A DNA stretch of 64,000 nt from Rhododendron vialii (taxonomy: Eukaryota; Streptophyta; Magnoliopsida; Ericales; Ericaceae): the NCBI RefSeq assembly GCF_030253575.1, contig NC_080561.1:35735564-35799563 (forward strand), written 5' to 3'. Positions 3,768-57,727 of the stretch are shown here, one piece after another; position 1 is the stretch's first letter, and the number at the start of each line of letters is the position of its first letter. The notes below the pieces were generated by a model, which saw only the letters and a list, made by a program, of their open reading frames with translations, was not told the DNA's origin and did not search any database. The position numbers and the translations under genes were made by a program.

Positions 3768-3946
3768 AAATCTTTTAATGGCAGAGCCGATTGTTTACGG
3801 AGTCAATCGCGATCATCCAAAAAGTTACTTTTTCTTGAAAAAAATTCATTAAAATTCAGACCGTCCAGAACACTTTTGAATCATCGCGATTGGTTACTGA
3901 TGTAAAGAACTTGTTCACGGCTGAACCGTGAATAAGCTTTTCTCTA
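3762..3946. mobile_element. MITE, 'TTATTCACGG' family, copy 1
   Basis: The terminal inverted repeats are imperfect: AGAGAAAATCTTTTAATGGC at the left, and the complement of AGAGAAAAGCTTATTCACGG at the right. The same ends occur at 32464-32591 and about 57497-57727, so this is one family. It has no coding capacity. Confidence 0.55.
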
Positions 3947-14872: not shown

Positions 14873-17800
14873 ATGGCCCCCAAGAAAAGCCCAAAAGCAG
14901 CGAGTCTCGCTACCCAAGTGGCGCAGATCCTCGAAGGAGAAGAAACCCCTGTTCACACCGAGGTCCTGATTCTGCAAGAGGAAGCAAAATCGGGAATGGC
15001 CCTCGGTCCTGCTCTTGACAGTGAGTTTCCTCCTTCTCTATTTGCTTACTATCCCCTTGCTGAGGACTCCTTGCCTTTTGACTCGGTGGAACCCCTCTGG
15101 GGCTGTTATCACAAACCAAACCCTAATCGGCTATGGCCTCGGCCTGATAAAGAATACATTGCTTGGTTGGACCGAGTTGCCGAGGCCAAGGGCGATTTGT
15201 GGGAAATAATAGGTATTCATGATGCCATTATGCTCAGTAGGTGTTCCATAAATATGGACAAAGCCCTCTTCTTTGCCGCGGCCCAGTTTTGGTCCATAAC
15301 TTCTAACAGCTTTCACTTTAGAGTTGGGATGATGGGTCCAACCCTTCAAGATGTCTGTTTCCTTACCGGCCTCCGCGTTCACGGAGTCGAGGCTGATTGT
15401 TTCTTGAGCCAAGCGACTCCTGTCTTTGATTACCCTGCATCAGAATACTTGGCCTATACTCGCTTCGTTTCTCTCTTCCACGGAAAAGGGGAAGTCACCG
15501 ACGAGGAGCATGTAGCCTTCCTAATTTATTGGCTCAATAAATTCATCTTCTGTGTTTCTTCGAGTCGAATCACTAAAGACTTTACGGATTTGGCCAAAGC
15601 CTTGGCCTCGGGCAAAGAGATAGCCATGGCCCCCCTAGTGTTGGCCTATGTTTATAGAGGCATGCATGACCTTCTAGAAAATCAATATGTTTTTGCTGCC
15701 GGGCCTCTATGGGTCATGACTTTATGGTTGTGGGCCTACTTTCCTTCCTTAGGCCCTATCTTGGACAAGATTCCCGATAACACCTGTTATGGCCTTCACT
15801 ATCGTGACTTATCCCCCCGAGACCATACTTTTGAGGCCTGCTTTAAGTACTTTTATTCTGACTTTGTTTCGATGGGTGAGGGCTGGATGCCTTTCGAAAG
15901 GGACACGGTCCCAGCTTGGCTTAAGGCCTCCCCCGGAGAGGCCGAAGAGGGGGATAATGATCATAAGGAGATTTGGGCAAACTTTTTAACTTCTAGAGAC
16001 TTATTGTTCGGTTTGAGTGCCCAATCGAGGAATGATAAGGTTGGAGTTGAATTCTATAATGCCGCCCAGTTTGCACGACAATTCGGCCTACTTCAACTCA
16101 TCCCCCTCCCTCCTTACAAATCACTTAACGCCAACTTCACACCGAGGCCTGTTATTGATCTGAAACTCCTGGAGAAGGTGAGAAACGATTCTGACAAAGC
16201 CAAAGCTGATTTTGACTTCAAGCCTTACTCCGAATTTCCTGAGAAATCAAATGAATTTGCTACCTGGTGGAAGGGCTACATCAAGCCTCTTCTGTCCAAG
16301 CCTGTGGGAAAAGTTTTGAAAGACCTTGCTCTCCCACCTCCTCCTGAATCGAAAAAGGGCATTTTCAAGGCCAAGACAACCTCGGCTACCTCTTCTAAAA
16401 GGAAAGGTAAGATTATGTTTGCATTGCCTCCGTCCGTCTCTCTTGCTGATTTGTTTACTGACCAATTGCCTTTTACACAGATCTTGATGAAGATGAAGAG
16501 GTGGAACAAAAGCAAGCCTCCAAAAAGGCAAAGAAACCCCCCGTTCCGGCCCCGAAGGCCACCATTGGGAAACAACAACCTTCAAAGGTATCCTTTCTTC
16601 CCAGAGTTTTCATTTTTGTAGGCTTTCAGGCCTTGTACTTACAGGGTCCACGGTGCTTTGCCTAGGTTATTAAGACCACCATCGCTGATCGAACGCGGGC
16701 TAGTGCGTCTAAGATTCAAGAAGAAGAATCTCCATCCACGACGGTAACTTCTTGCCATTGTTGGCTTACAATCTGCCCCCCAGTTGCATAATCGTGCGTA
16801 ATCATGCCTTACCTATTTACTTTTATTGGCTCAGGCCTTGGGTAAGAGTAGCAGCAGCAAGGGCACGAAACCCGCCACGGCCAAGACAAAAAAGTTGCAG
16901 GTAACTTTGGCTCGAAAGACACAAAGCACTGCCTCTCTCGAGGGGACAGATTCTAGCACCCCTTTTGTTCATGTAAGGATTTATTTCACTTAGCCCTCTT
17001 ATCGCGGTCCAGGCTAATATTGATCCTTCATCGGTCTTGGCAGGAACTCGATGAATTTGGTTCTTCAAGTGAGTCCGGGGGTTCTGAGCCTGATTCTAAA
17101 ACCTCTAGGGAGGTTAAGACTACCTCTCTTTCTTTGGGAACCCCAAAAACTCAGCCATCTGTCGAAAAGAAACCAATCCTTCTTGATCTTGACGATGAGT
17201 CTTTCGACAAGTTTTTCCAAACCGTGGAAGAATTAGTGAATCCTACTGCCTCAGGGACCTCTGGTAGCGGAATTGGGTCATCAACCCCAGTATCATTCCC
17301 ACCCGAGGAGATTCAGCAAGCCAAGGAAAACCTGAAAGTAGCTCTAGGCCTGGGTGTTGAGTCCGCCTTTCACCCAGACCATTATCCTGCAATCCGCAAA
17401 TCGGTGAACACTTTGGTTAAATCCCAGGCCTTAGGGGGAAGCGCTGATCCTGTCTTACAAACTTTTCTCAGGGATCTTCCGAACCTAAAGAAGTCCTTCG
17501 AGTCGGCCACTGAGAAGCGTACACTTGCTGCCTCCAAGCTCACCAAGATCGATGCCTTGCAGCAGGAATTGAAGCAAGGGCTTGAGGCACGGAACCAGCT
17601 CAAAGCAGACATTGGAGCGGCCAAAATAAGGCGCATAGAGCTTCTTTCAACCATCCAGGCCTTAGAACAACAGCTGGTCGACTCCCGTCAGCAATTAGCA
17701 GACCATGGACAGTACGAAGCACTGCTGGCCCAGCGAAGGCAGGAATTCGTCGATGCTGCTCAAGGCCCTCTGGATGCCCTTCAGACTTTGATGGTCAAAA

Positions 17801-18091: not shown

Positions 18092-21000
18092 TTATGCGCT
18101 TATATTTTGAGATGGCAGTTTCTCATTAAAATCCCCCATCTCCCATACGGTAGGATAATAATGTTTTAAAAACTTGCCATTAATGGTGTGCTTATGGACT
18201 TTACCATCCAAGTCCGTAAGGAGATACACGTTACCCCTAAAGACCTGGCAGATCTGGTAGGGCCCTTCCCACGTCGGAGACCATTTCCCATACTTGGCAG
18301 TCTTCGTACCTAAAGGTAATACGGTTTGCCAGATCAAATCTCCTTCTGAGAAGCTTTTCCTTCTGACCCTCTTGTCGTAGGCCCTGGCCACCCGTTGTTT
18401 TTGGACCACCATATGGTCGAAGGCTGCTAACCTTATTTCGTCTAAATCTTCCAATTCCATGAGCATGGCCTGGGAATATTCTGCTGGGGCAAGGCCATTC
18501 TGGTAAGCCCACCTTGTTGACCTAACGGTGACCTCCATCGGTAGTATTGCGTCATGGCCATACACTAACATATAAGGAGTAACGTTAGTGGCCTCCCTCT
18601 TGGACGTCCTATAGGCCCATAAGGCCTCGGACAGAAGCTCATGCCATACTCTCGGTTTCTCCTCAACCATTTTCTCTACTATCTTAATCAAGGTTTTGTT
18701 GGTAGATTCCGCTTGGCCGTTTCCTTGAGCATAGTAGGGGGTGGAATGGGATAGGTTAATGTGGTATTGGCTACAAAAAGCCTGGACCTCCTTTCCGAAG
18801 AAAACCGATCCTCTATCGGCCACCAAGTGTTGGGGAATGCCGAATCGATGAATGATCCTCTCCCTTATGGCCTTAATGACATCCTGCTGGTTCACAGTCT
18901 TTAATGGGATGGCCTCGGCCCATTTAGTAAAGTAATCCGTGGCCACTAAAATAAAAGTATGGTTTTTAGACGACGGCGGGTGTATCATCCCTATTAGATC
19001 CACTGCCCATCCCCTAAAAGGCCATGGCTTAATCACGGCCTGGAAGTTGGCTGCTGGCACGTGTTGAACCTGGCCATGGGCCTGGCAGGCCTGGCATCCT
19101 TTAGCATACCGGATGCAATCTTCAAGGATCCGTGGCCAATAATATCCATACCTCCTAATCAACCATCTCATTTTGACACCTGATTGGTGAGCACCACAAA
19201 CACCCTCGTGTACCTCACCCATCACTCTCAAAGCTTCCACCCCGTCAAGGCATTTAAGGAGTAAATCGTCCTCTAGACTCTTTTTGTACAGGTCATCTCC
19301 TATCAAAAGATAGCTAATGGCCCTCCTCCTAGTCTTTTTTGTTACCTTGGTACACGGATTTTTGAGGAACGAAATGATGGGATCACGCCAACCACTCTGC
19401 TGTGGCCCATCTTCTCGTTGAATATCCTCGATCGTTGGCTCGAGTGGCTCTACTATAAACGCTGGCAGACCTAACCCTCTCCTTCGGACAGAGGGCAACA
19501 ATTTCTTTTGGACCGTCACGGCCCTAGACAAGGTGCCTGGAAAAAGCTTCAGGCCTGTTGAGGCCTGAGCTAAACTATTAGCCTCCTCGTTCATTCTCCT
19601 TGGTACGTGCCTTACCGTCACATCGTCAAAATCGTGTACAAGTTGCATTGCGGCCATATAGTACGGCGCCAAATCTTCGCTATAACATTTGAACGTGCCT
19701 GCTATATGGTTTATCACAAGGCTTGAGTCTCCTATTACTTCAATGGTTCCGGCCCCTAATTCTCTCAAAATCTCAAGGCCTATCACCACTGCCTCGTACT
19801 CGGCCTGATTATTCGTGCACTGAAAATCGAATTGGAAGGAACATTCAGTTTTCAGGCCTTCAGGAGAAATTATTATAATCCCACATCCTGACACCTCTTG
19901 CGTTTTGGATCCGTCAAAAAGTAACTTCCAAGGTTTTACAGATACCTCCATCACGTCCAAGCCTGGGCTGATTTCATCATTGACCTCCAAACATGGGTGA
20001 TCAACTAGGAAATCTGCCAAGGCCTGGCCTTTCACCGCTTTTTGAGGAACGTAACAAAAACTAAATTCCATTAAGGCCAAGGACCACTTGCCAATTCGGC
20101 CTCTTAAGATAGGCCGAGTTAACAAGTATTTGATTAAGTCCGTTTTACTCATGATGTAAACAGAAACGGGCAACATGTAGTGCCTCAATTTTATTGCTGA
20201 AAAGTACAAGGCAAGACATAATTTTTCGATAGGAGAATATCGTTTTTCACAGGGAGTCAACAATCTACTCAAATAATAAACCGCTTGCTCCATGCCTTGC
20301 TCATTGTCTTGGGCCAGCAAACTTCCAACCGAATCCTCAGCCGCAGAAATATATAATTTCAATGGCCTATCCTTAATTGGAGGCATCAAAACCGGGGTCC
20401 GCGCTAGATACCCTTTAATTGCTTCGAAGGCCTCCTGATGACAGGCCTCCCAAATGAAATCCTCTTGGTCCTTTATCTTTAGTAATGGAGAAAATGCCTT
20501 GACTCTCCCTGCTAAGTTCGAAATGAACCTCCTCAAGTAGTTTAGGGATCCGTGGAGCTGCTGCAACTCCTTCTTTGTTGACGGAGGTTTTGCTTCCATC
20601 AAGGCCTTCGACTTGTTCTTGTCGACCTCAATTCCTCGCTGATGAACCAAAAATCCGAGAAAGTTTCCCGCGGATACCCCAAAGGCACATTTCAAAGGGT
20701 TCATCTTTAAATCGAACTCTTTCATTCTTTGAAAAGCCTTTCGGAGATGTTCCAAATGCTCCTCGTCGGATTGAGATTTTACCACCACGTCATCAATGTA
20801 GACTTCCATGAAACGGCCGATAAAGTCATGGAAAATGGCGTTCATGGCCCGTTGATATGTGGCTCCCGCATTTTTCAGGCCGAATGCCATCACCACCCAC
20901 TCAAATGTCCCTAAAGCCCCTGGACACCTAAATGCTGTTTTGGCGGTATCGGCCTCGTTGATGAAGATCTGGTTGTAACCCGAATGCCCATCCATAAAAG

Positions 21001-21739
21001 ACAACAACTTATGCTTTGCCGCTCCATCAACCATCAAGTCGGCCAATGGCATCGGGTATTCATCTTTTGGCGAAGCAAGGTTCAAATTTCTAAAATCTAT
21101 GCAAACTCGAATCTTGCCATTCTTTTTGACCACTGGGACAATATTAGAAAGCCAAGTCACGTACCTTGCCGTTTGAATGAAGCCAGCCTTAAGAAGCCTC
21201 TCGATCTCCTCCTTGACCTTGAGCTCCACTTCACTTGACATCCTCCTTGGAGGTTGCTTGAACGGCGTGAATCCCGGTTGTATTGGCAGCTTGTGCTCGA
21301 CCAAATTCCTTGGGAGGCCTGGCATCTCATCATAATCCCATGCAAAGCAAACTTTGAATTCCGTCACGAGACGAATGAGTTTTTCTTTTACCTCATCGGG
21401 CCAGAGCTGGTTGATGTACACAGGCCTGGGGTTCTCGGAATCTCCCAAGTTGATTTCTTGCAAAGGATCCTGAACGTCGGCCTTCAAATCGTCCATCTTA
21501 GCTGGGGCTGCGTCTAAGTCCTCCATTTGTATCACGTCAGGGCCTTTTGCAAGGCCTTCGTCTTCATAGATGAATTCCGCTGCTCCTATCGGTGAGGGAC
21601 CTTCTTCTTCACATGACCTATACATTCTTTCCTCCATTAAGTAAGACCTGAATCGTGCAATCATGGCCTGTAGGGCCATGTCCTCATCTTGGTCAATCGG
21701 TCGTACTGACATTGGAAATGGCTTGAGTCGTGGGAGCAA
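18092..21739 (-). CDS. Tat element pol region: RT, RNase H, aRNase H, integrase
   Basis: One frame of about 1215 codons. In order: reverse transcriptase (MPLADLMVDGAAKH, LLSFMDGHSGYNQI, active site YIDD); a first RNase H with the tether region; a second, archaeal-type RNase H (LFDGSKTQEVSGCG, NNQAEYEAV, IGDSSLV); integrase with the HHCC zinc finger (HEGVCGAHQS..., CQACQAHG) and DDE core (AVDLIGMIHPP, PYYAQGNGQAESTNKTL); and a C-terminal GPY-like segment. The dual RNase H is the mark of the Tat lineage. These enzymes copy the element RNA into DNA and insert it. Part of the fossil element described above. Confidence 0.9.
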   Translation of the reverse strand: MLPRLKPFPMSVRPIDQDEDMALQAMIARFRSYLMEERMYRSCEEEGPSPIGAAEFIYEDEGLAKGPDVIQMEDLDAAPAKMDDLKADVQDPLQEINLGDSENPRPVYINQLWPDEVKEKLIRLVTEFKVCFAWDYDEMPGLPRNLVEHKLPIQPGFTPFKQPPRRMSSEVELKVKEEIERLLKAGFIQTARYVTWLSNIVPVVKKNGKIRVCIDFRNLNLASPKDEYPMPLADLMVDGAAKHKLLSFMDGHSGYNQIFINEADTAKTAFRCPGALGTFEWVVMAFGLKNAGATYQRAMNAIFHDFIGRFMEVYIDDVVVKSQSDEEHLEHLRKAFQRMKEFDLKMNPLKCAFGVSAGNFLGFLVHQRGIEVDKNKSKALMEAKPPSTKKELQQLHGSLNYLRRFISNLAGRVKAFSPLLKIKDQEDFIWEACHQEAFEAIKGYLARTPVLMPPIKDRPLKLYISAAEDSVGSLLAQDNEQGMEQAVYYLSRLLTPCEKRYSPIEKLCLALYFSAIKLRHYMLPVSVYIMSKTDLIKYLLTRPILRGRIGKWSLALMEFSFCYVPQKAVKGQALADFLVDHPCLEVNDEISPGLDVMEVSVKPWKLLFDGSKTQEVSGCGIIIISPEGLKTECSFQFDFQCTNNQAEYEAVVIGLEILRELGAGTIEVIGDSSLVINHIAGTFKCYSEDLAPYYMAAMQLVHDFDDVTVRHVPRRMNEEANSLAQASTGLKLFPGTLSRAVTVQKKLLPSVRRRGLGLPAFIVEPLEPTIEDIQREDGPQQSGWRDPIISFLKNPCTKVTKKTRRRAISYLLIGDDLYKKSLEDDLLLKCLDGVEALRVMGEVHEGVCGAHQSGVKMRWLIRRYGYYWPRILEDCIRYAKGCQACQAHGQVQHVPAANFQAVIKPWPFRGWAVDLIGMIHPPSSKNHTFILVATDYFTKWAEAIPLKTVNQQDVIKAIRERIIHRFGIPQHLVADRGSVFFGKEVQAFCSQYHINLSHSTPYYAQGNGQAESTNKTLIKIVEKMVEEKPRVWHELLSEALWAYRTSKREATNVTPYMLVYGHDAILPMEVTVRSTRWAYQNGLAPAEYSQAMLMELEDLDEIRLAAFDHMVVQKQRVARAYDKRVRRKSFSEGDLIWQTVLPLGTKTAKYGKWSPTWEGPYQICQVFRGNVYLLTDLDGKVHKHTINGKFLKHYYPTVWEMGDFNEKLPSQNISA

Positions 21740-24700
21740 TCGGCCTGTGATTATCCGGGCCGACTAGCTCTTGGAACAGCTTTCTTAACTCATCTACGGA
21801 GGCTTGTGGGGAGATGGAAACCGTTTTGTGGCGGCCATACTTGTCCAGGCCTGCTATCTTCATTGGGCCAATGTCTGGGTCATACAACATTGCTTCCGCA
21901 TGGTTTGTGGAAGCAAGAAAAGGCCTACGATCTGCCCATACTACCTCGACGTCATCTTGGTTCCAAAACACTATGCATTGATGTAAGGTCGAAGGGATTG
22001 CCATGCAGGCGTGGATCCAGTCTCTCCCCAACAGGACGTTGTACGATGCCCGAGAATCGACCACAAAGAAAGGAGTGGTGAGCGTCTTGGACCCAACCGT
22101 CAACTTCATGATCAAGATACCTTGGCAAGTGGTGACGCCCCCGGTGAAGTCAGTCAAGCTTGCACTGGAAGCGATGAGGTCTTGATCGGTCTTTCCTAAC
22201 TTGTACATCATGGACTTAGGGATCAAGTTGGCAACCGAACCATTATCTACAAGCAAACAATTAACCGGCATCCCATCCAAACATCCTGAGATGTACAAGG
22301 GTTTAATGTGGTTGGCCGCTTTTGAAGTTGGTTTTTCAAAAATGGCACAAGCGGCCTGTTCGGCCTGCTCCTTCTCAGCCTTCTCTTTCAATATAATCAC
22401 CGACGAGACAGCTTCCACAGGTCTGGAAGACTGTCCTAAGATCTGTGCCATCTCCCCCAACTCCTCTATGTCACCTTCCATGACAGAAATTTGGTGCTCT
22501 TTGGCCATCGCCTCTTCTGGCAAAATGAAAACCATGTTGCAAGGCTTCGAAAGGCCTTGAGAGGGCCTAAATTCTTTGGCTAATGGGTTCAAGGCTCGCT
22601 TGCCCCCCTAGGCCGATCGATCACCCAGCTTTGGAATAGGAGTATTGGCTACCGGTGCAGCCCTTTGAAGGATTCTTACTTGGCGTGGAGGCTCAGTAGG
22701 ATCCTCCTTTACCATTCTTTCTTTAGGCTTGCGTTCTCTTCTAGGCCTAGATGTCTCGTCCTCCTCGGAACAAGAAAGACTCCTTCGAAATAGGACCTTC
22801 TCCTTCCCCTTTTTACTGCTCTCGAGGCCTTCATCTCCGCTAAAATTCATCTCCATGTTTCCTTGCTTCAAAGCTTCCAGGTCTTCTAAAGGACCTTCCT
22901 CAGGCCTATCTTCCAAATCCATTCCTTCTTCTGCCCTCCGGGCGGCCTGCCTAAACCTTTGGTAACGCCGCTTCTGCGACCTGGACAAAGGTGGCCTTTC
23001 TGCGGGAAACTTAGGATGTTCAACTTTGGACCACTCGTTTAGAGGAGTGTTTTTGGGTTTCACGGTCCTAGGCCTCCTCTCTGCCGAAGAAAAGGCCTCA
23101 AATTCATAGTCGCGCCTCGCCTCACTTCCGTGGCCAGACCGAAGACGTGAGAAAACGGATGAACGCTTGTGTGTTTCTGGTCTGTGATCAGGCCTAAACT
23201 CTGGAGGTCTCACCACCATGCTCTTCAGCTGTGGTTTGGATGGCTCGACCGTCTGTCCGCACTCGTTACAGACCAGCGAGCACCTTGGCGTGAAGAACTT
23301 CTTGATTTCTGACGCTGGCCTGCTCCACCGGGATGGCCGCTGTTCAGTCTGTCTCACTCGACGAGGTCTTCATAAGTAGGCCTTCGTGCTTGCCTAGATG
23401 GTTCTCCTAAGCTGACTTTGGGCCTTGGAGAACTATTCGGCATTCCCCTCATGTTGAAGGACACCATGTTGGTACTCAGGCCCGTCGGGAATGGATTTGC
23501 ATCCACACCCATGGCCTTCTTATCTTTCGACTCAAACTTGAACTCTCCACGTTCGATCTTATCTTGAATATCATTTCGGAAGACCATACAGTTGTTGGTG
23601 GTATGGCTCCACGAATTATGATATTTGCAATATTCTCTGCCCTTCAAATCCATCGTTGGAGGAAGCTTATGGCCTGGATGAAGCTTCACAAGCTTGTCGG
23701 CCATGAGCTGATCAAAGATTGCCTCGGCCTTCGTAATGTCGAATGTGTAGACCCGGTTCGACTTGCCTGAAGGTGATGCAAAGTCTGCCTTTTCCAACCT
23801 GCCAGCTTTCAAGAAATAAGGCTTCTTGTTAATCAACTCCGCGACAGCCACCTCTGCTTCGTACCCAGGCTCCACTGCGGCCACCTCATAATTGGGGTCT
23901 CTATAATAGGTTCCCTTCGAGGCGGCCATGCGGTCTTGTTCCTGCCTCAAGATCCGCTCATATCTTGCTGCTTTGGCTGATAACTCAAAAAGATCCCTAA
24001 ACTCCGCCTCGTAGAACTTCTTTTTCAACTCAAAGTTTAGGCCATTTAACGCCAAGCTCACGTACTCCTTCTCGGGCAGGGAGACCTTACACTTAAATCG
24101 AGCCTTCTTGAATCTGGCCAAATAAGTCTCCACTCCTTCGTCTGGGAGCTAGCACAAGCTTGAAAGGTCAGCCATTGTGACCTCTGGCTCCACCCTATAA
24201 AACTGTTGGTGGAATGCATCCTCCATTTGTCGCCAGGTCTGGATGGAGTTAGGAGATAGATTGATGTACCACGTAAAGGCGATGGCAGTCAAGGAGTTGG
24301 GAAACAACCTCAACTTCCACTCGTCCTTAGTCCCTGCTTCCCCACATTGGACTTGGAACCGGGCTACGTGTTCCACCGTTGATTCCTTCGCGTCTTCCCC
24401 AGAAAAAGTATGGAACTCTGGTACTCGAAAGCCTTTCGGGAACAGTAGCTGGTCAACCTCGTCTGAGTGAGGCTTCGTATAAATAGGCCTCCCCATAGGC
24501 CTAAATTCTGGCCCTAACTGCTCCTGGAGCAGCGCTATGATCTGGTCTCTACCGGGTACCTGCTCGAGGGGGGGAGGCCTTGCATACTCCTGGGGCGGCG
24601 GCCTGACTTGTACAGCGTTAACTGGCTGTCACTGGCCGTGCCATGCCCCCCGAGTATCTTGCTGCACGAATCCCATGTGGGGCGCCACGTGGGGAATATG

Positions 24701-30491: not shown

Positions 30492-30832
30492 GATAATCTC
30501 GCACATATCTTGCACATATATTTTTATGGGGCTTATATTGGGGTCACATAAAATGATCCGAACAGCTCATTTTTTTTAAAATATTTTTTGAAAGGTTTTT
30601 GAAAAAAAATCAGCTCCAAAATGCTTTTTCAAAATTCGCAGGGCAAAACAGAATTATTCGTCTTATGATTTCTGATAAAACTCTTACCGATATCCGTTGA
30701 AGCTGATTTTTTTACAGGAACCCTCCAAAAAAATATTTTAAAAAAAGATGAACGGTTCGGATCATTTTGTGGGACATCGATATGGGCCCCACGTATGTGC
30801 AAAATATATGCAAAATTATTTGTGTGAGAATC
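30492..30832. mobile_element. hairpin MITE
   Basis: The long inverted arms include ACATAAAATGATCCGAAC on the left and GTTCGGATCATTTTGTGG on the right, with AAAAAATCAGCTCC / GAAGCTGATTTTTT nearer the loop. The inner AAATCAGCTCC and ACCGATATCCGTTG blocks are shared with the MITE at 35433. Confidence 0.65.
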
Positions 30833-30850
30833 ATTACTGAATTCCATATT

Positions 30851-31160
30851 CTCCTTCGGTTCAAATTTAATAGTTCTTTTTGAGAATTCGTGACATTTTT
30901 CAATCAATTATATATTGTAATTTATAATGGTTTATGTAATTTTAAAAATATTATTTTATAAAATTAATTGAGATGTAATCAATTATATATTGTAATTTAT
31001 AATGGTTTATGTAATTTTAAAAATATTGTCTTATAGAATTAATTGAGATCTCTCAAATAAGATCCATATTAGATATAAAATTCATTCCAATTTAAGGGTA
31101 TAATTCATTTTTTATTCAATTAGAATTGAACGAAGAATTACTAAATCCAAACGGAAGGAG
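30851..31160. mobile_element. Stowaway-like MITE with internal 75-bp duplication
   Basis: The ends CTCCTTCGGTTCAAATTTAATAG and ACGGAAGGAG are complementary in type. A 75-bp unit starting ATCAATTATATATTGTAATT (30903) is repeated in tandem at 30978 with about three differences. Confidence 0.6.
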
Positions 31161-31782: not shown

Positions 31783-31804
31783 CACTCTCTCTCTCTCTCT
31801 CTCT
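31783..31804 (+). promoter_or_regulatory. (CT)n tract in the lectin kinase leader
   Basis: A CT run of about 22 bases ends about 100 bp before the start codon. Such tracts are common in plant 5' leaders and bind GAGA-type factors. Confidence 0.5.
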
Positions 31805-31902
31805 AAAACCCCGTGATTAAAATCCAGCGAAAAAGGAAAATTCCATACTTCAGACAACAAACCCATCACAAATTCCTTCATGGGTATTACCAAAGCCCAG
31901 CA

Positions 31903-34322
31903 ATGACGTCACTTCCCGGCAATTTCTCCTGCTATCTCTTCCTTCTCATAGAATTCCTTCTGCTGCTCTGTTTTTCCGATAATGTCACCGGGGACACATC
32001 GTTCGACTTCGGCACCCTCACCCTGTCCAGCCTGAAGCTCCTCGGCGACGCCCGCCTGAACAACGGGAGCGTGGCGCTCACCCGCGACCTCGCCGTCCCC
32101 AACTCCGGCGCCGGCAGGGCCTTCTACTCCAAACCCGTCGCCTTCCGGCGACCCGGGACCCGCGCGCCGGCCAGCTTCTCGACCTTCTTCTCCTTCTCCG
32201 TCTCCAACCTCAACCCCTCCTCCATCGGCGGCGGCCTCGCCTTCGTCATCTCCCCGGACGACACCTCCGTCGGCGCCCCCGGCGGATACCTCGGCCTCAT
32301 CACCCCCACCGGCGCCCCGAACGGCACCGTTGCGATAGAATTCGATACCCTTATGGACGTGGAGTTCAACGACGTTAACGGAAATCACGTCGGTTTTGAT
32401 CTGGACTCAATGGAGTCGACTCAGGTGATTCATTTTGTTTTGTCCAAGATATTTGTTACGTAACAAGAGAATAACTGGAGCTCAATGGTGGAGTTCGATC
32501 TTGGCCCTCCAAAATGCTTTTGTACGATCGAGATTGAACACCTCCATGAATAATTTATTCACTACTCTTCCGTGAATAAGTTATTCTCTTGTAATAAACT
32601 TCGTAATGTAAATGCTGTCTAGTTATTAATATAATTTTCTTCATTATGTCAAAAAAAAAAATGATGTCGGCTCAGGTGGGCGATTTGGACACGATTGGAG
32701 TGGATCTGAAAAGCGGTGACCAGGTCAACTCGTGGGTCGACTACTCCGGGTCGACTCAGGTGCTCAACGTCTCGGTATCGTACTCCAACCTCAAGCCCAA
32801 GACCCCGCTCCTGTCCTTCCCTCTCGATCTCGGCGAGTACGTGGGGGATTCCATGTTCGTCGGGTTCTCCGGGTCGACTCAGGGGAGTACCGAGTCGCAC
32901 AGCATCGAGTGGTGGAGTTTTACTTCCTCTTTCGATGTGGACTCGAAGGCCGAGTCGTCATCGCCACCTTCGTCATTGCCCAGCCCGCCCTCGCCACCGG
33001 CTACTTTGTTGAACCCGACGGCTGATATTGTCAACCCGCCGCCGCCTTCTCTGACGCCAACTGAGTCAAACAGTAGTACTAACTCGGTAACCGTAGAGAA
33101 AAACACCAAATGTCATAGCCAATTGTGCAAACAGGGCCCAGGAGCAGTGGTTGGGGTAGTGACAGCCGGGGCGTTCTTTCTAGCCTTGTTTGCTGTTCTT
33201 CTCATCTGGGTTTACTCCAAGAAGTTCAAACACGTGAGAAAACCCGATTCGTTCGGATCGGAAATCATCAAGATCCCGAAAGAATTCAGCTACAAGGAGC
33301 TCAGATTGGCCACCAAGTGCTTCAGTTCATCCCGAATCATCGGTCACGGCGCGTTCGGGACCGTCTACAAGGGTATATTACCGGAAAGTGGCGACATTGT
33401 TGCAGTTAAAAGGTGTAGTCACAATGGGCAGGGGAAAGCAGAGTTCTTATCCGAATTGTCGATAATTGGAACGCTCAGGCATAGAAATCTCGTTAGGCTT
33501 CAAGGCTGGTGTCACGAAAAGGGGGAAATTCTATTGGTTTATGACTTGATGCCTAACGGGAGCCTCGATAAGGCCTTGTTCGAATCAAGAATGCCATTGC
33601 CCTGGTCCCACAGGCGAAAAATCCTGATGGGCGTGGCCTCTGCCCTGGCATACTTGCACCAAGAATGCGAAAACCAGGTGATCCACCGGGACATAAAGAC
33701 CAGCAACATAATGCTGGACGAAAGGTTCAACGCGAAGCTGGGCGATTTCGGCCTGGCGAGGCAGGTCGAGCACGACAAGTCGCCGGACGCGACCGTGGCG
33801 GCCGGGACGATGGGGTACCTGGCCCCGGAGTACTTGCTGACCGGGAGGGCCACCGAGAAGACCGATGTCTTCAGCTTCGGGGCGGTGGCGCTCGAGGTTG
33901 CCAGCGGGAGGAGGCCTATCGAGAAAGAGAGTGCTGCTGTGGGGAAAAAAGAGGGTGGAAGCAGTAATTTGGTGGAGTGGGTTTGGGGTTTGCATAGGGA
34001 TGGGAGGCTGATGATGGCTGTGGATTCGAGGCTTGGTGGGGAGTTTGATGAGTTGGAAATGAGGAAAGTGATTCTGGTTGGGCTGGCCTGCTCGCACCCT
34101 GACCCTATGGCTAGGCCGAGCATGAGGGGTGTGGTCCAGATGCTTGTGGGTGAGGCTGAGGTCCCTGTGGTCCCCAAGGCTAGGCCCTGCTTGAGTTTCA
34201 GCACTTCTCATTTGTTACTCAACTTGCAAGATAGTGTGTCCGATTTGAATGCCATGATCAGTCTCTCCACCTCCTCCTCCTCTTCCGACCGCAGCTACGA
34301 TGGCGGTGTGGGCATGGTCTGA
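31903..34322 (+). CDS. L-type lectin receptor kinase, clade VIII
   Basis: Plasma-membrane receptor kinase of the LECRK-VIII group. I place exon 1 at 31903-32424 and exon 2 at 32676-34322 (722 residues; relatives have about 710). The ATG at 31903 is chosen because a signal peptide (FLLIEFLLLLCFS) follows at once; an in-frame ATG at 31813 would add 30 polar residues. The legume-lectin domain covers residues 30-270 (FDFGTLTL, NPSSIGGGLAFVIS, VAIEFDTLMDVEFNDVNGNHVG, FVGFSGSTQGS). A Pro-rich linker and one membrane segment (AVVGVVTAGAFFLALFAVLL) follow, then a Ser/Thr kinase: GHGAFGTVYKG, VAVKR, HRDIKTSNIMLD, DFGLAR, TMGYLAPEY. All catalytic residues are present. Across the splice junction the protein aligns without gaps to Arabidopsis LECRK81/82, which as I recall have no intron here. 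Confidence 0.92.
32425..32675 (+). other. single 251-bp intron of the lectin kinase
   Basis: The donor is CAG|GTGATT and the acceptor CTCAG|GTGGGC. The 19 bases over the donor (32409-32427) and over the acceptor (32660-32678) match at 16 positions and lie exactly one intron length apart. The intron carries the MITE at 32464. Unspliced RNA would end in the intron. Confidence 0.85.
32464..32591. mobile_element. MITE, 'TTATTCACGG' family, copy 2 (Tourist-like, in intron)
   Basis: 128 bp with ends CAAGAGAATAACT and AGTTATTCTCTTG, a near-perfect 13-bp inverted repeat (the right copy reads GTTATTCTCTTG). It is flanked by TAA on both sides (32461-32463 and 32592-32594), the PIF/Harbinger target. 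It makes up half of the intron. Confidence 0.8.
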
Positions 34323-35432: not shown

Positions 35433-35773
35433 TACACTACCTCCAACCACTACACCATCTATTATATTTTTTGTAGGGCCCATCTCGAGTCCAAAAAAAT
35501 ACAGAAAAATGTTCATAAATTTTAAAATTGTATATTATGGGGCCCTGTAAAAAATCAGCTCCAACAAATATCGATAAGTATTATTTCTTGATTCGTAGGG
35601 AAAAAACTGTACAGTTGAGCAGTTTCGCCCCTACAAATCAAGAAATAATATTTACCGATATCCGTTGGAACTGATTTTTTACAGGGCCCCTTATTCTAAA
35701 ATTTATGGACATTTTTCTGTATTTTTTTGGGACTCAGGATGAGCCTCACAAAGATGTAGTGGATGGTAGTGTA
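35433..35773. mobile_element. hairpin MITE
   Basis: The arms fold over almost all of 341 bp: TACACTACC at the left pairs with GGTAGTGTA at the right. Further in, AAAAAAATACAGAAAAATGT pairs with ACATTTTTCTGTATTTTTTT, and GGGGCCCTGTAAAAAATCAG pairs with its complement. The stem is over 90% matched near the loop. Confidence 0.8.
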
Positions 35774-48889: not shown

Positions 48890-51800
48890 TCAGACCCCAT
48901 CACGGCCCATGGCCTGACCTCCAGGTGGGAACATAACCAAGACTCGAGGTTGGTCCTTAAACCCAGGATGGGGAAGCCTACGACGAAGCTCGCGAGCTTC
49001 CTGGCAAAGCGCACACGCATGACAGAAGATATGAGTTGCCCTGTCGCATAACGACTCACATTCCTCATCATCCACAAAACTTCCGCAGCTGCCCTGTTTG
49101 TTCAACCAAAAAACAAGAACAAATTTTCAGCATAGAAACAACAGCAAAGCTCAGGCTGTAATGCTTTTCTTCAAAAAAACATGTTTGGTGCACCATGTAT
49201 TTAAAAGCTTGTGTCCAAATCAAGTAAGAGGGTGGCTGTAGAATTGTCTGGAGTTAACAAGCAAATGCTCCTTGATAAAGGAAACAAAAACTTCACCTGA
49301 CAGTCTATATGAAAAGTGTGTAACCAAGTCTCCAGAAGAAAGACAGCAGGAGTCGCTTGTCTACAGATGACCCCCCGAAAGTGGCGAGTGGGGGAAAGGA
49401 AAAGAAAAGAGAAAAACAACAACAAAAAGTAGTATCTCGATTGGCTGCCAATTGAAAATTCGAAACCCGCTCGAGAGGGCTTCATTACCTAAAAGGAAGT
49501 CGAGAAAAAGCCGAGTCATAGGCCAGTTGAGCCAGGAAAAGGCCGAGAGAGAAACGTGAACAAAAGCAAAGTTACCCTAACTAGAGAGAGGAAAAAAATG
49601 CTCTAGACTAACCCAAGCTTCAACTGTCCCTAGTGGCATATGGATCATGGGGATATACCTCAGTAGCAGGATCCTTCTGAAATGGGTGCGCTCCCTAGAC
49701 GGGAGCTCGAATTGGCGCTCCCAAGACGGGAGCTTAACGGGTGGGAGCTTATCGGGTGTTAATGCAATTATTCTGTTACTTTTAAGGGAGTTATGCCATT
49801 ATGGAAATAAGAATATGAGAATCATATTAGTCAAAAAAATTTCCAAATTGAGAAAGGATGGACGTTGAGAATATAAAACTTCCAATAATTACACTTTAAG
49901 ATCGGAATTTTTTTTAATAAGTTTCACTTTTCCTTTAATGGTTAAGTATTTAAAGATATTTTATATACATATTTTTCTATAAGCTATATACACTTCTTGG
50001 GCGCTTCCAACCTTAGGAGCTTCTAGGTGCCTCGCTCCCCCGCACCCGCCCCGCTTCATGCTACTAAGGGTTATACAGTTCCAACTCTACCACTCTTGAA
50101 TCTGAGCACTTTAGCATTCGAGGGTATGCAGCTTCTACCGGAAAAAAGATATGGAACATATATAATACAAGTGGTAAGTGACTCTTGAAGTAACCAAGAA
50201 TCTCCTCAAGGGCGGGCGCAATCCTCGTTTTTCCAACTGTAACCTGGTACAGTGTAGGGACTAGAGAGCTACTGGCCTAATGCAATTGTCGTGATTCAGC
50301 ACACTCCTTTGTTAGGGGAATAAGGTTGCAGACAAGCGGGCAGCCATCGGAGTTCACCAGGAGGTGCACATCGTAACTGTAGACACACCTCTGGATGAAG
50401 TCGCATACCTTTTTGCTGCTGACCTTGCCGGGATTGCCTTTGGAAGACATTTTTAATTGTCTTAGTTTATCTTTCATTGTTTTTCTCGTCTTGCGCAGGG
50501 GACCCGAAAAAAGGACTAGGGACAGTGTCCTCATAGATCGCCATGGTTACTAAACAAGCAAAGATACATTTACAGGTATGAAAGGACGCAAACATTTCAA
50601 CTCGCAATTTTCAAAAAATCAAGACATAAGGCGGCTGGGACACAGTAACAAACTATCATATGAGAATCAAGCTCTATCATTATACGTACCATTTGATCGC
50701 AATAATACTTCGTGGTAATAGGAGAAAATATAAATCACAACATAGACGAAAAAGAGAATGGTAGACGAAAGCTGAAAGGTGCGTCAACTTAGATACCATC
50801 ACTCTGAATTTAACCGGCCAGCCACTACTAGTTAACTCGAAAATGGAAGAATAACTTGCCTCTAGGTTAAATGTGTGGCGTATAGCAGTACGGCTGGGGT
50901 ATGAAAACCAGGGTGCCAAAACATTCGCGCCAAACAAGGAGTTCCCAATCAAGTATGCACCAGCGTAACGCAAGCAGTGACTGGAAAAAGTCCCAGGAAC
51001 AGAGCCAAGTCTCTCAACATTGCTTCCATACAGGACACACGGAGCCACACTTCCAAGGAGGCCTGCCAAATGCCAAGGTGACTGTAAGAGTACAGATAAA
51101 TCCACAATTGAAAACTCTGAGACCAGAATAAATGCAGAAAGATGACCAGACGAAGCACAGGCAACGTATCGACTAATAGTTTCTGGAGCATTCAAATCGC
51201 AATATCGAATCATCATGAAGGATCACTAGTCAACTTTTGATTTGATCGATCTTCTGTAACATATGTGATTAGTCTGGGAAACATCAACCAGTCAACCACC
51301 GTTAAATTATACTACTCCCTCCGTTCGCCTTTGTTGGTCCATTTTGGGAATTCTAACTTATTAAGGGAACAAAATAATGCTGCTTTTGTAAGATAAATTT
51401 TCTTTTTTGCCCTTCAATTAAAAATTTGGCTCAAAACTGAAATTTTAAATATTGACATGACTTCACAAAAAAGGAAGGGTAAGAAAGGAAATCCATTCTC
51501 TTTTGCACATTGATGTGACTACATGGATAATCTTTGTAGGACTTAAAAAAACATGTTTGTGGACTAACAAATGCGAACGGAGGGAGTACGAAATATGAAA
51601 GTAGACACAAACACACGTACAACTGAACCTGGGGACTCTACTGTCCCTTAAATTATACTACTACCAAATATGAAAGTAGATCTGTTCGGCCAAGATGAAA
51701 TTTGAGCCATCTATTGCCGAGCATGGACGGCTCAGGTGGGCCTCATTTCTACGCGTGTACTTTCCTTGATCTTAAAATGCAGGTGCAACTAATTGTTGAG

Positions 51801-57496: not shown

Positions 57497-57727
57497 GGGA
57501 AGAAATTTTATTCACGGAGGTTCCGTAAATAATGTTTACGGAGGTTAATCTTGGCTGTCTAAAAGTGTTGTGAACGATTCATAGACAAACTATTAACGGT
57601 AAAAGATATTTATTGCCGGTCAAAAATTAAAAACATATCTCAACCGTTAATTGTCGAAACGAACAGATAAAATTGTGCGCTTTTCGTGAACAGCTTATTC
57701 ACGCACTGTGAATAAATTTTTCTCCTT
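57497..57727. mobile_element. MITE, 'TTATTCACGG' family, copy 3
   Basis: The ends GAAATTTTATTCACGG and GTGAATAAATTTTTCTCC match the family ends at 3762 and 32464. An inner AAGTGTTGTGAACGATTC block resembles copy 1 (ACACTTTTGAATCATCGC, inverted). It lies about 120 bp upstream of the PLAC8 copy B start. Confidence 0.6.

Follow-up and report, generated by a model that had tools for sequence, protein, structure and literature searches.

Introns derived from mobile elements

Intron gain by insertion of a transposon is a described route: a 2012 review (PMC3443670) lists 35 such events, found in Oryza, Drosophila, Oikopleura and Zea. In the AGGT insertion model presented in that review, the duplicated AGGT provides both the donor and the acceptor, and the coding sequence is left unchanged. 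An intron of the rice catalase A gene is attributed to the insertion of a SINE (Iwamoto et al. 1998, as cited in PMC2394776 and PMC3443670). Intron 3 of Dsec GM26034 comes from the retrotransposon Doc1053 and is 98.4% similar to this element (PMC3296678). Introners, which are families of mobile elements carried by many introns, also recruit splice sites from the target-site duplication; a 2022 survey (PMC9860276) found none of these families in land plants.

The locus described here is a further case of this known route, and an unusually legible one. It is found in a window of 64,000 nucleotides of Rhododendron vialii (C5:35735564-35799563); the genome searched was that of the window itself (assembly of 532.6 Mb in 13 sequences). 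In a lectin receptor kinase gene, the intron very probably arose by the sense insertion of a 5′-truncated poly(A) retroposon into the coding sequence of the lectin domain, with a target-site duplication containing AG|GT; a MITE was inserted later. The intron is made of mobile-element sequence, AG|GT is duplicated at both junctions and the intron is absent from the relatives compared (24 of 29 paralogous loci, the other 5 having no alignment across the site, and a published table of Solanaceous genes).

The likeness to rice catalase A, as this case is summarised in the papers that cite it, is that a SINE-type retroposon in a plant coding sequence led to an intron. The gene, the element and the lineage are different, and here the element is a 5′-truncated tail that contains a nested DNA-type element. 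As in Dsec GM26034, an insertion of a retrotransposon alone formed the intron and is recognised by its target-site duplications. In the account given in PMC3296678, however, these duplications lie at the 5′ end of the intron and 15 nt downstream, and the mRNA keeps extra bases; at the present locus the gain is an old one, donor and acceptor junctions both fall inside the duplication and the length is restored. From the AGGT insertion model as worded in PMC3443670 there is no difference in principle: the locus exemplifies the model in a land plant, with a second insertion in addition. With introners, as they are described in PMC9860276, it shares the making of an intron by a mobile element and splice sites recruited from the target-site duplication, but introners are families found in many introns whereas a single intron is known for the retroposon family found here.

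The host gene and its spliced product

The gene is found at 31903-34322 (forward strand). Joining position 32424 to position 32676 leads to 722 codons without stop, which encode an intact lectin receptor kinase of 722 amino acids with one full lectin domain and a kinase domain. Exon 1 (31903-32424, forward strand; 174 codons of the spliced translation) extends from the start codon to the first 60% of the legume-lectin domain and includes a putative signal peptide. Exon 2 (32676-34322, forward strand) is open in frame and encodes the remainder of the lectin domain, a hydrophobic (transmembrane-like) segment and the kinase domain, up to the stop codon. Both the domains (L-lectin, transmembrane segment and kinase) and the length fit clade VIII of the LecRKs, whose proteins have about 709-721 amino acids; AtLecRK-VIII.1/2 are presumably the closest described relatives.

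The inferred intron (32425-32675, forward strand; 251 nt) is delimited by the open spliced frame, the domain scores and the base composition. In Pfam profile searches, Lectin_legB matches the spliced protein with E=2.4e-62 versus 2e-34 (left) and 7.4e-23 (right) for the unspliced readings, the left one (31903-32460) covering profile positions 2-150 of 250. Pkinase matches the spliced protein with E=7.5e-50. The G+C content is 33% in the intron versus 62% and 55% in the exons; an intron G+C content that is low relative to that of the exons suits plant splicing. Splicing at 32424/32676 in the plant is predicted from the open frame and the single lectin domain.

Among the best 80 of 2921 candidates scored in the same genome, the nearest protein shows 43% identity across the whole length, or 63% across the kinase alone. 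No relative was found when a 141-residue part of exon 2 was used to scan contigs of prokaryotes and viruses.

The 19-base repeat at the junctions

The upstream copy of the repeat (32409-32427, forward strand) carries the donor, CAG|GTG at 32424/32425, and the downstream copy (32660-32678, forward strand) carries the acceptor, CTCAG|GTG at 32675/32676. The copies match at 16 of 19 bases with an offset of 251, and the 8-nt CTCAGGTG is identical in both; the repeat given by the sequence-only reading is therefore confirmed. For a fixed pair centred on AGGT, agreement at 12 or more of the 15 other positions has a probability of about 1.4e-5. The best local segment of the pair (13 nt, one mismatch) gives P=0.005 when compared with mismatched flank pairs of the retroposon family. 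Pairs matching at 16/19 or better at lags of 60-600 are nevertheless frequent: 1286 are found in the window (3.7e-5 per pair). Twelve pairs of this quality lie inside the gene, and a single different coding repeat, at lag 123, gives 11 of them; its motif is also matched at 15/19 by the upstream copy (lags 335 and 458). Taken alone, the repeat is therefore not decisive. What is decisive is the retroposon found between the copies, together with its exact register.

The best reading of the repeat, with its AG|GT, is a target-site duplication left by a 5′-truncated poly(A) retroposon. The poly(A) run of the retroposon directly abuts the downstream copy. A poly(A) that abuts the downstream duplicate is the pattern left by target-primed reverse transcription. 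At the 5′ edge of the retroposon, most family copies read TAGATGATT and the window reads CAGGTGATT; due to this microhomology, the right edge of the upstream copy, and hence the 5′ edge of the retroposon, is ambiguous by a few nucleotides. Microhomology is common at the truncated 5′ ends of retroposons.

A tandem duplication of a coding segment containing AG|GT, the resulting intron being filled or replaced later by mobile elements, would also place a 19-base repeat with AG|GT at both junctions, and it is the route with the most events (188) in Table 1 of PMC3443670. But the retroposon and the MITE account for every base between the copies, the poly(A) run leaves no gap before the downstream one and the match at lag 251 stops at the 19 bases, with no extension beyond. 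Such a start for this intron is very improbable, and tandem duplication was rejected as the source of the repeat, since the two elements fill all that lies between its copies. The proposal that the intron was born by duplication of an AG|GT-containing site thus holds in that the duplicated site is the likely source of both donor and acceptor; the duplication itself is ascribed to insertion of the retroposon, not to a tandem event or to the MITE.

The retroposon family

The 5′ part of the retroposon (32428-32466, forward strand) ends with the left duplication of the MITE (32453-32466: TTGT, a 5-nt insertion TACGT, and AACAA). The 3′ part (32589-32659, forward strand) includes the right duplication of the MITE, TTGTAATAA (32589-32597), then a conserved tail and 9 of the 11 A residues that form the poly(A) run. 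In a DNA search, the stretch to the right of the MITE was found at 11 other places in the genome (E<=1.3e-6), 9 of which have a match to the left arm, in some cases weak, directly upstream of the right arm. As both arms are adjacent in other copies, they belong to one element, which was split by the MITE.

In a wider set of 37 family copies, the left arm is matched in 26 at p<0.05 and in 19 at p<0.01. The control taken far upstream is matched in 7 of 37 at p<0.05, which is above the nominal rate. Some copies count against this assignment: the left arm is unmatched at p<0.05 in 11 of the 37, other sequence lies between the arms in L015 and the left arm is absent from its place in L012.

The motif made of the tail and the following A residues is found, with at most three mismatches, at 85 places including the window; the reversed pattern, used as a control, gives none. 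The copies share a common 3′ end with poly(A) and have staggered 5′ ends, at about -100 to -695. The longest ones start near a CT-rich AAAACCCTAG, about 0.7 kb from the end. Flanking duplications above the 95% null are carried by 8 of 36 copies, including that of the window (about 1.8 expected); the other 28 have none, which is expected for old copies and is still a weakness. The family thus shows the poly(A) 3′ end, the variable 5′ truncation and the target-site duplications of a non-LTR-type (poly(A)) retroposon. No reverse transcriptase ORF, as an autonomous LINE would have, was found: the longest copies have about 0.7 kb and the longest stop-free frame upstream of 30 loci has 183 codons. 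The family is probably non-autonomous.

For these counts, L056 and L063 (3′ end motif absent), L059 and L065 (no usable 5′ boundary), L070 (overlapping L060) and L016 (the same copy as L051) were set aside, as was one of 38 rows for its length. In the test of flanking duplications, the junction was entered by hand as the 5′ boundary of the window copy, in place of a BLAST boundary. Rfam gave no match on three family loci. The copies other than that of the window have 35 flank peptides of at least 65 residues; 9 of these, chosen by hand, were compared with Pfam, and the only match is the kinesin exon beside L067; three further flank peptides gave no match. This exon encodes part of the kinesin motor domain (E=3e-24) and lies just downstream of the L067 copy, which may therefore be located in a kinesin intron.

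The 5′ leader of the lectin receptor kinase gene, at about 31783-31815, contains (CT)n followed by TAAAACCCC. It resembles the (CT)n-AAAACCCTAG start of the longest retroposon copies; this may be due to chance.

The nested MITE

The MITE (32467-32588; 122 nt) has inverted ends and terminates in GAGAATAAC. It makes up 122 of the 251 nt of the intron, about half, as had been stated from the letters alone. At least 35 similar stretches, also ending in GAGAATAAC, are found at no fewer than 31 other places in the genome. Both MITE ends were found in 12 of 27 loci. In these 12, the identity of the 9-bp flanks is 0.722 versus 0.342 for mismatched flanks, and that of the 3-bp flanks is 0.389 versus 0.338. 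The 9-bp flanks agree at 8-9 positions in 7 loci (three of which share their flanks and represent one insertion), at 6-7 in 2 loci and at 2-3 in 3 loci. The family thus makes 9-bp duplications, which by their length identify it as Mutator-like and not as Tourist. A Tourist (PIF/Harbinger) element with a 3-bp TAA/TTA duplication, the identity first given to this MITE, was ruled out, as the 3-bp flanks are near the mismatched level. In a literature search on Mutator-like MITEs, the match listed is on Prunus.

In the window, the script found no pair of MITE ends, owing to the shortness of the left inverted end. On inspection by eye, the flanks agree at 8/9 if the 5-nt insertion is set aside and at 6/9 otherwise. 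The flank on the right, TTGTAATAA, is what the retroposon itself carries at this point, and that on the left is TTGT-TACGT-AACAA. The MITE therefore lies inside retroposon sequence and came second. The alternative in which insertion of the MITE made the intron, the duplication arising with it, draws on the share of the intron that the element occupies. It is extremely improbable: the retroposon sequence in which the MITE lies is uninterrupted in other copies, distances of 39 and 71 nt separate the MITE ends from the copies of the repeat, and the MITE family makes duplications of 9 bp, not 19. The nesting and the 9-bp duplications also led to its rejection as the source of the repeat. Of the two possibilities left by the sequence-only reading, a duplication arising with the MITE is thus discarded and a later landing of the MITE is retained, its target being the retroposon.

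At the left junction of the MITE (32453-32466) there is a perfect palindrome of 14 nt, TTGTTACGTAACAA, which results from the 5-nt insertion in the MITE duplication. Two more matches to the terminal sequence of the family are found at 3926-3944 and 57706-57724; the window contains four in total, versus 0.02 expected by chance.

Make-up of the intron and splice signals

The intron begins with the GTG (3 nt) that belongs to the upstream duplicate, continues with 39 nt of retroposon (32428-32466), the 122 nt of the MITE (32467-32588) and 71 nt of retroposon (32589-32659), and ends with 16 nt of the downstream duplicate (32660-32675), which gives 3+39+122+71+16=251 nt. Nothing is left for an older intron. 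Without the MITE, it corresponds to the last 86 nt or so of a non-LTR-type retroposon and to its poly(A).

The putative branch point is the A at 32629, in the branch-point-like TTATTAAT (32623-32630, forward strand); its function here is presumed. Downstream of TTATTAAT lies a U-rich stretch, and the next AG is that of the acceptor at 32674-32675, 46 nt further on. In 37 of 38 family members, including the window copy, YTNAY occurs within the final 30 nt and the remainder of the element after it is free of AG. This motif is loose, and its conservation in the retroposon tails is suggestive only. Just upstream of the acceptor there is poly(A) and not pyrimidine, and position +5 of the donor is T; by the splice-site consensus, the sites are therefore not strong. 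The predicted RNA fold of the intron is stable (z=-4.0), which says little beyond the palindrome of the MITE.

The following scheme is proposed. A severely 5′-truncated, poly(A)-tailed retroposon of non-LTR type would have been inserted, in sense orientation, into the coding sequence of the lectin domain, and an AG|GT-containing target of about 19 bp would have been duplicated. The spliceosome would use the upstream duplicate as donor and the downstream duplicate as acceptor, so that the whole insert and one duplicate would be removed and the ancestral reading frame would be recovered: as donor and acceptor are two copies of one site, removal of 251 nt restores the frame that preceded the insertion. 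The tail of the retroposon may supply the branch-point-like TTATTAAT, the U-rich tract and the AG-free stretch up to the acceptor. The later insertion of the Mutator-like MITE into the retroposon would have doubled the length of the intron.

Gain, age and retention of the intron

Among 29 paralogous loci retrieved from the same genome, 24 are uninterrupted across the site in one alignment and 5 have no alignment spanning it. L048 and L049 are apparently a single locus that was duplicated, and two loci hold a stop elsewhere. Distant clade VIII genes had been proposed as a check of the gain; the six Solanaceous ones given in Table 1 of PMC4623685 (709-721 aa) all lack introns, in agreement with it. 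In the same source, introns are reported in 6 of 45 Arabidopsis LecRKs. They are not rare in the wider L-type LecRK family, since 100 of 248 wheat genes contain introns, according to the figures quoted from PMC12196811. Among the matches listed by literature searches, no title deals with LecRK structure in Rhododendron, and none of those on intron gain deals, by title, with Ericales.

For the retroposon copy of the window, the terminal branch has a length of about 0.22 substitutions per site versus a median of 0.098 for the others (86 sites), and the two copies of the duplicated site differ at 3 of 19 positions. The rate, r = 0.65/(2 x 78 My), was computed here from the Ks peak of azalea and the date that are given in PMC7572368. 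With this rate, a crude age of about 20-50 My, with an error of at least twofold, is estimated for the intron. The description of the gain as apparently recent is thus unsupported by the branch length, the three differences and this age.

The retroposon may also have destroyed the gene, the insert remaining unspliced and the locus being either a pseudogene or the source of a truncated half-lectin of 186 residues. The unspliced reading indeed meets a TAA at 32461-32463, after 186 codons, and the weakness of the splice sites would suit this outcome. However, 722 codons are still open although the insert has diverged by about 0.1-0.2 per site; the probability that neutral exons stay stop-free is 0.004 at 0.09 and 0.0007 at 0.15 substitutions per site (indels not counted). 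No near-identical copy able to take over the function was seen among the best 80 of 2921 candidates, and use of the AG|GT in both duplicates gives the frame back. Loss of the gene is therefore considered unlikely. For an intron born from the retroposon and spliced, the divergence suggests retention over tens of millions of years.

Other features of the window

Two features lie upstream of the gene, at 30493-30819 and 30902-31049: an inverted repeat that resembles a MITE, and a tandem duplication of 73 nt (96%). A MITE-like hairpin lies 1.2 kb downstream of the gene (35491-35730); in its inverted repeat, 85-nt arms are 85% complementary and 38-nt arms 95%. Two ORFs at 18095-22592 (reverse strand) encode gag-asp protease (weak), reverse transcriptase, RNase H and integrase domains, in the order known from Ty3/gypsy-type LTR retrotransposons. 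This LTR element is adjoined by an ORF of 582 aa (14873-16621, forward strand) that encodes a Plant mobile domain (PMD, E=2.8e-42). An ORF of 178 aa at 50683-51216 (reverse strand) has a weak PLAC8 match (27.2 bits, under the Pfam cut-off of 34.4).

Significance

The 3′ end of the retroposon could by chance be a near-complete 3′ splice region, in which case the family would be a land-plant counterpart of introners. With a tail carrying the conserved TTATTAAT, the U-rich tract and no AG, any sense insertion with an AGGT duplication could be an intron from birth. Five tails of the strict pattern with an AGGT 10-40 nt downstream are found in the genome, and only that of the window lies in a recognised exon. 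The flanks of the other four (L012, L064, L071 and L101, the last of which shares flanking sequence with L071) have frames of at most 82 codons, whereas those next to the window copy have 149 on either side, and Pfam gave no match on three peptides from these flanks. As the other strict-pattern tails with AGGT are outside recognised exons, there is among such tails no sign of an introner-like family, and this view of the retroposon is decidedly unlikely. If it were true, further introns would be expected in this and other Ericaceae genomes.

There are few gained introns for which the source of every base can be established. Here, a single locus displays the origin of the intron, the likely source of its splice sites, the restoration of the frame and a later second insertion. 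The nesting gives the order of events, the retroposon and then the MITE. On a tree of relatives, the repeat and the retroposon would thus be expected to appear together, and the MITE later.
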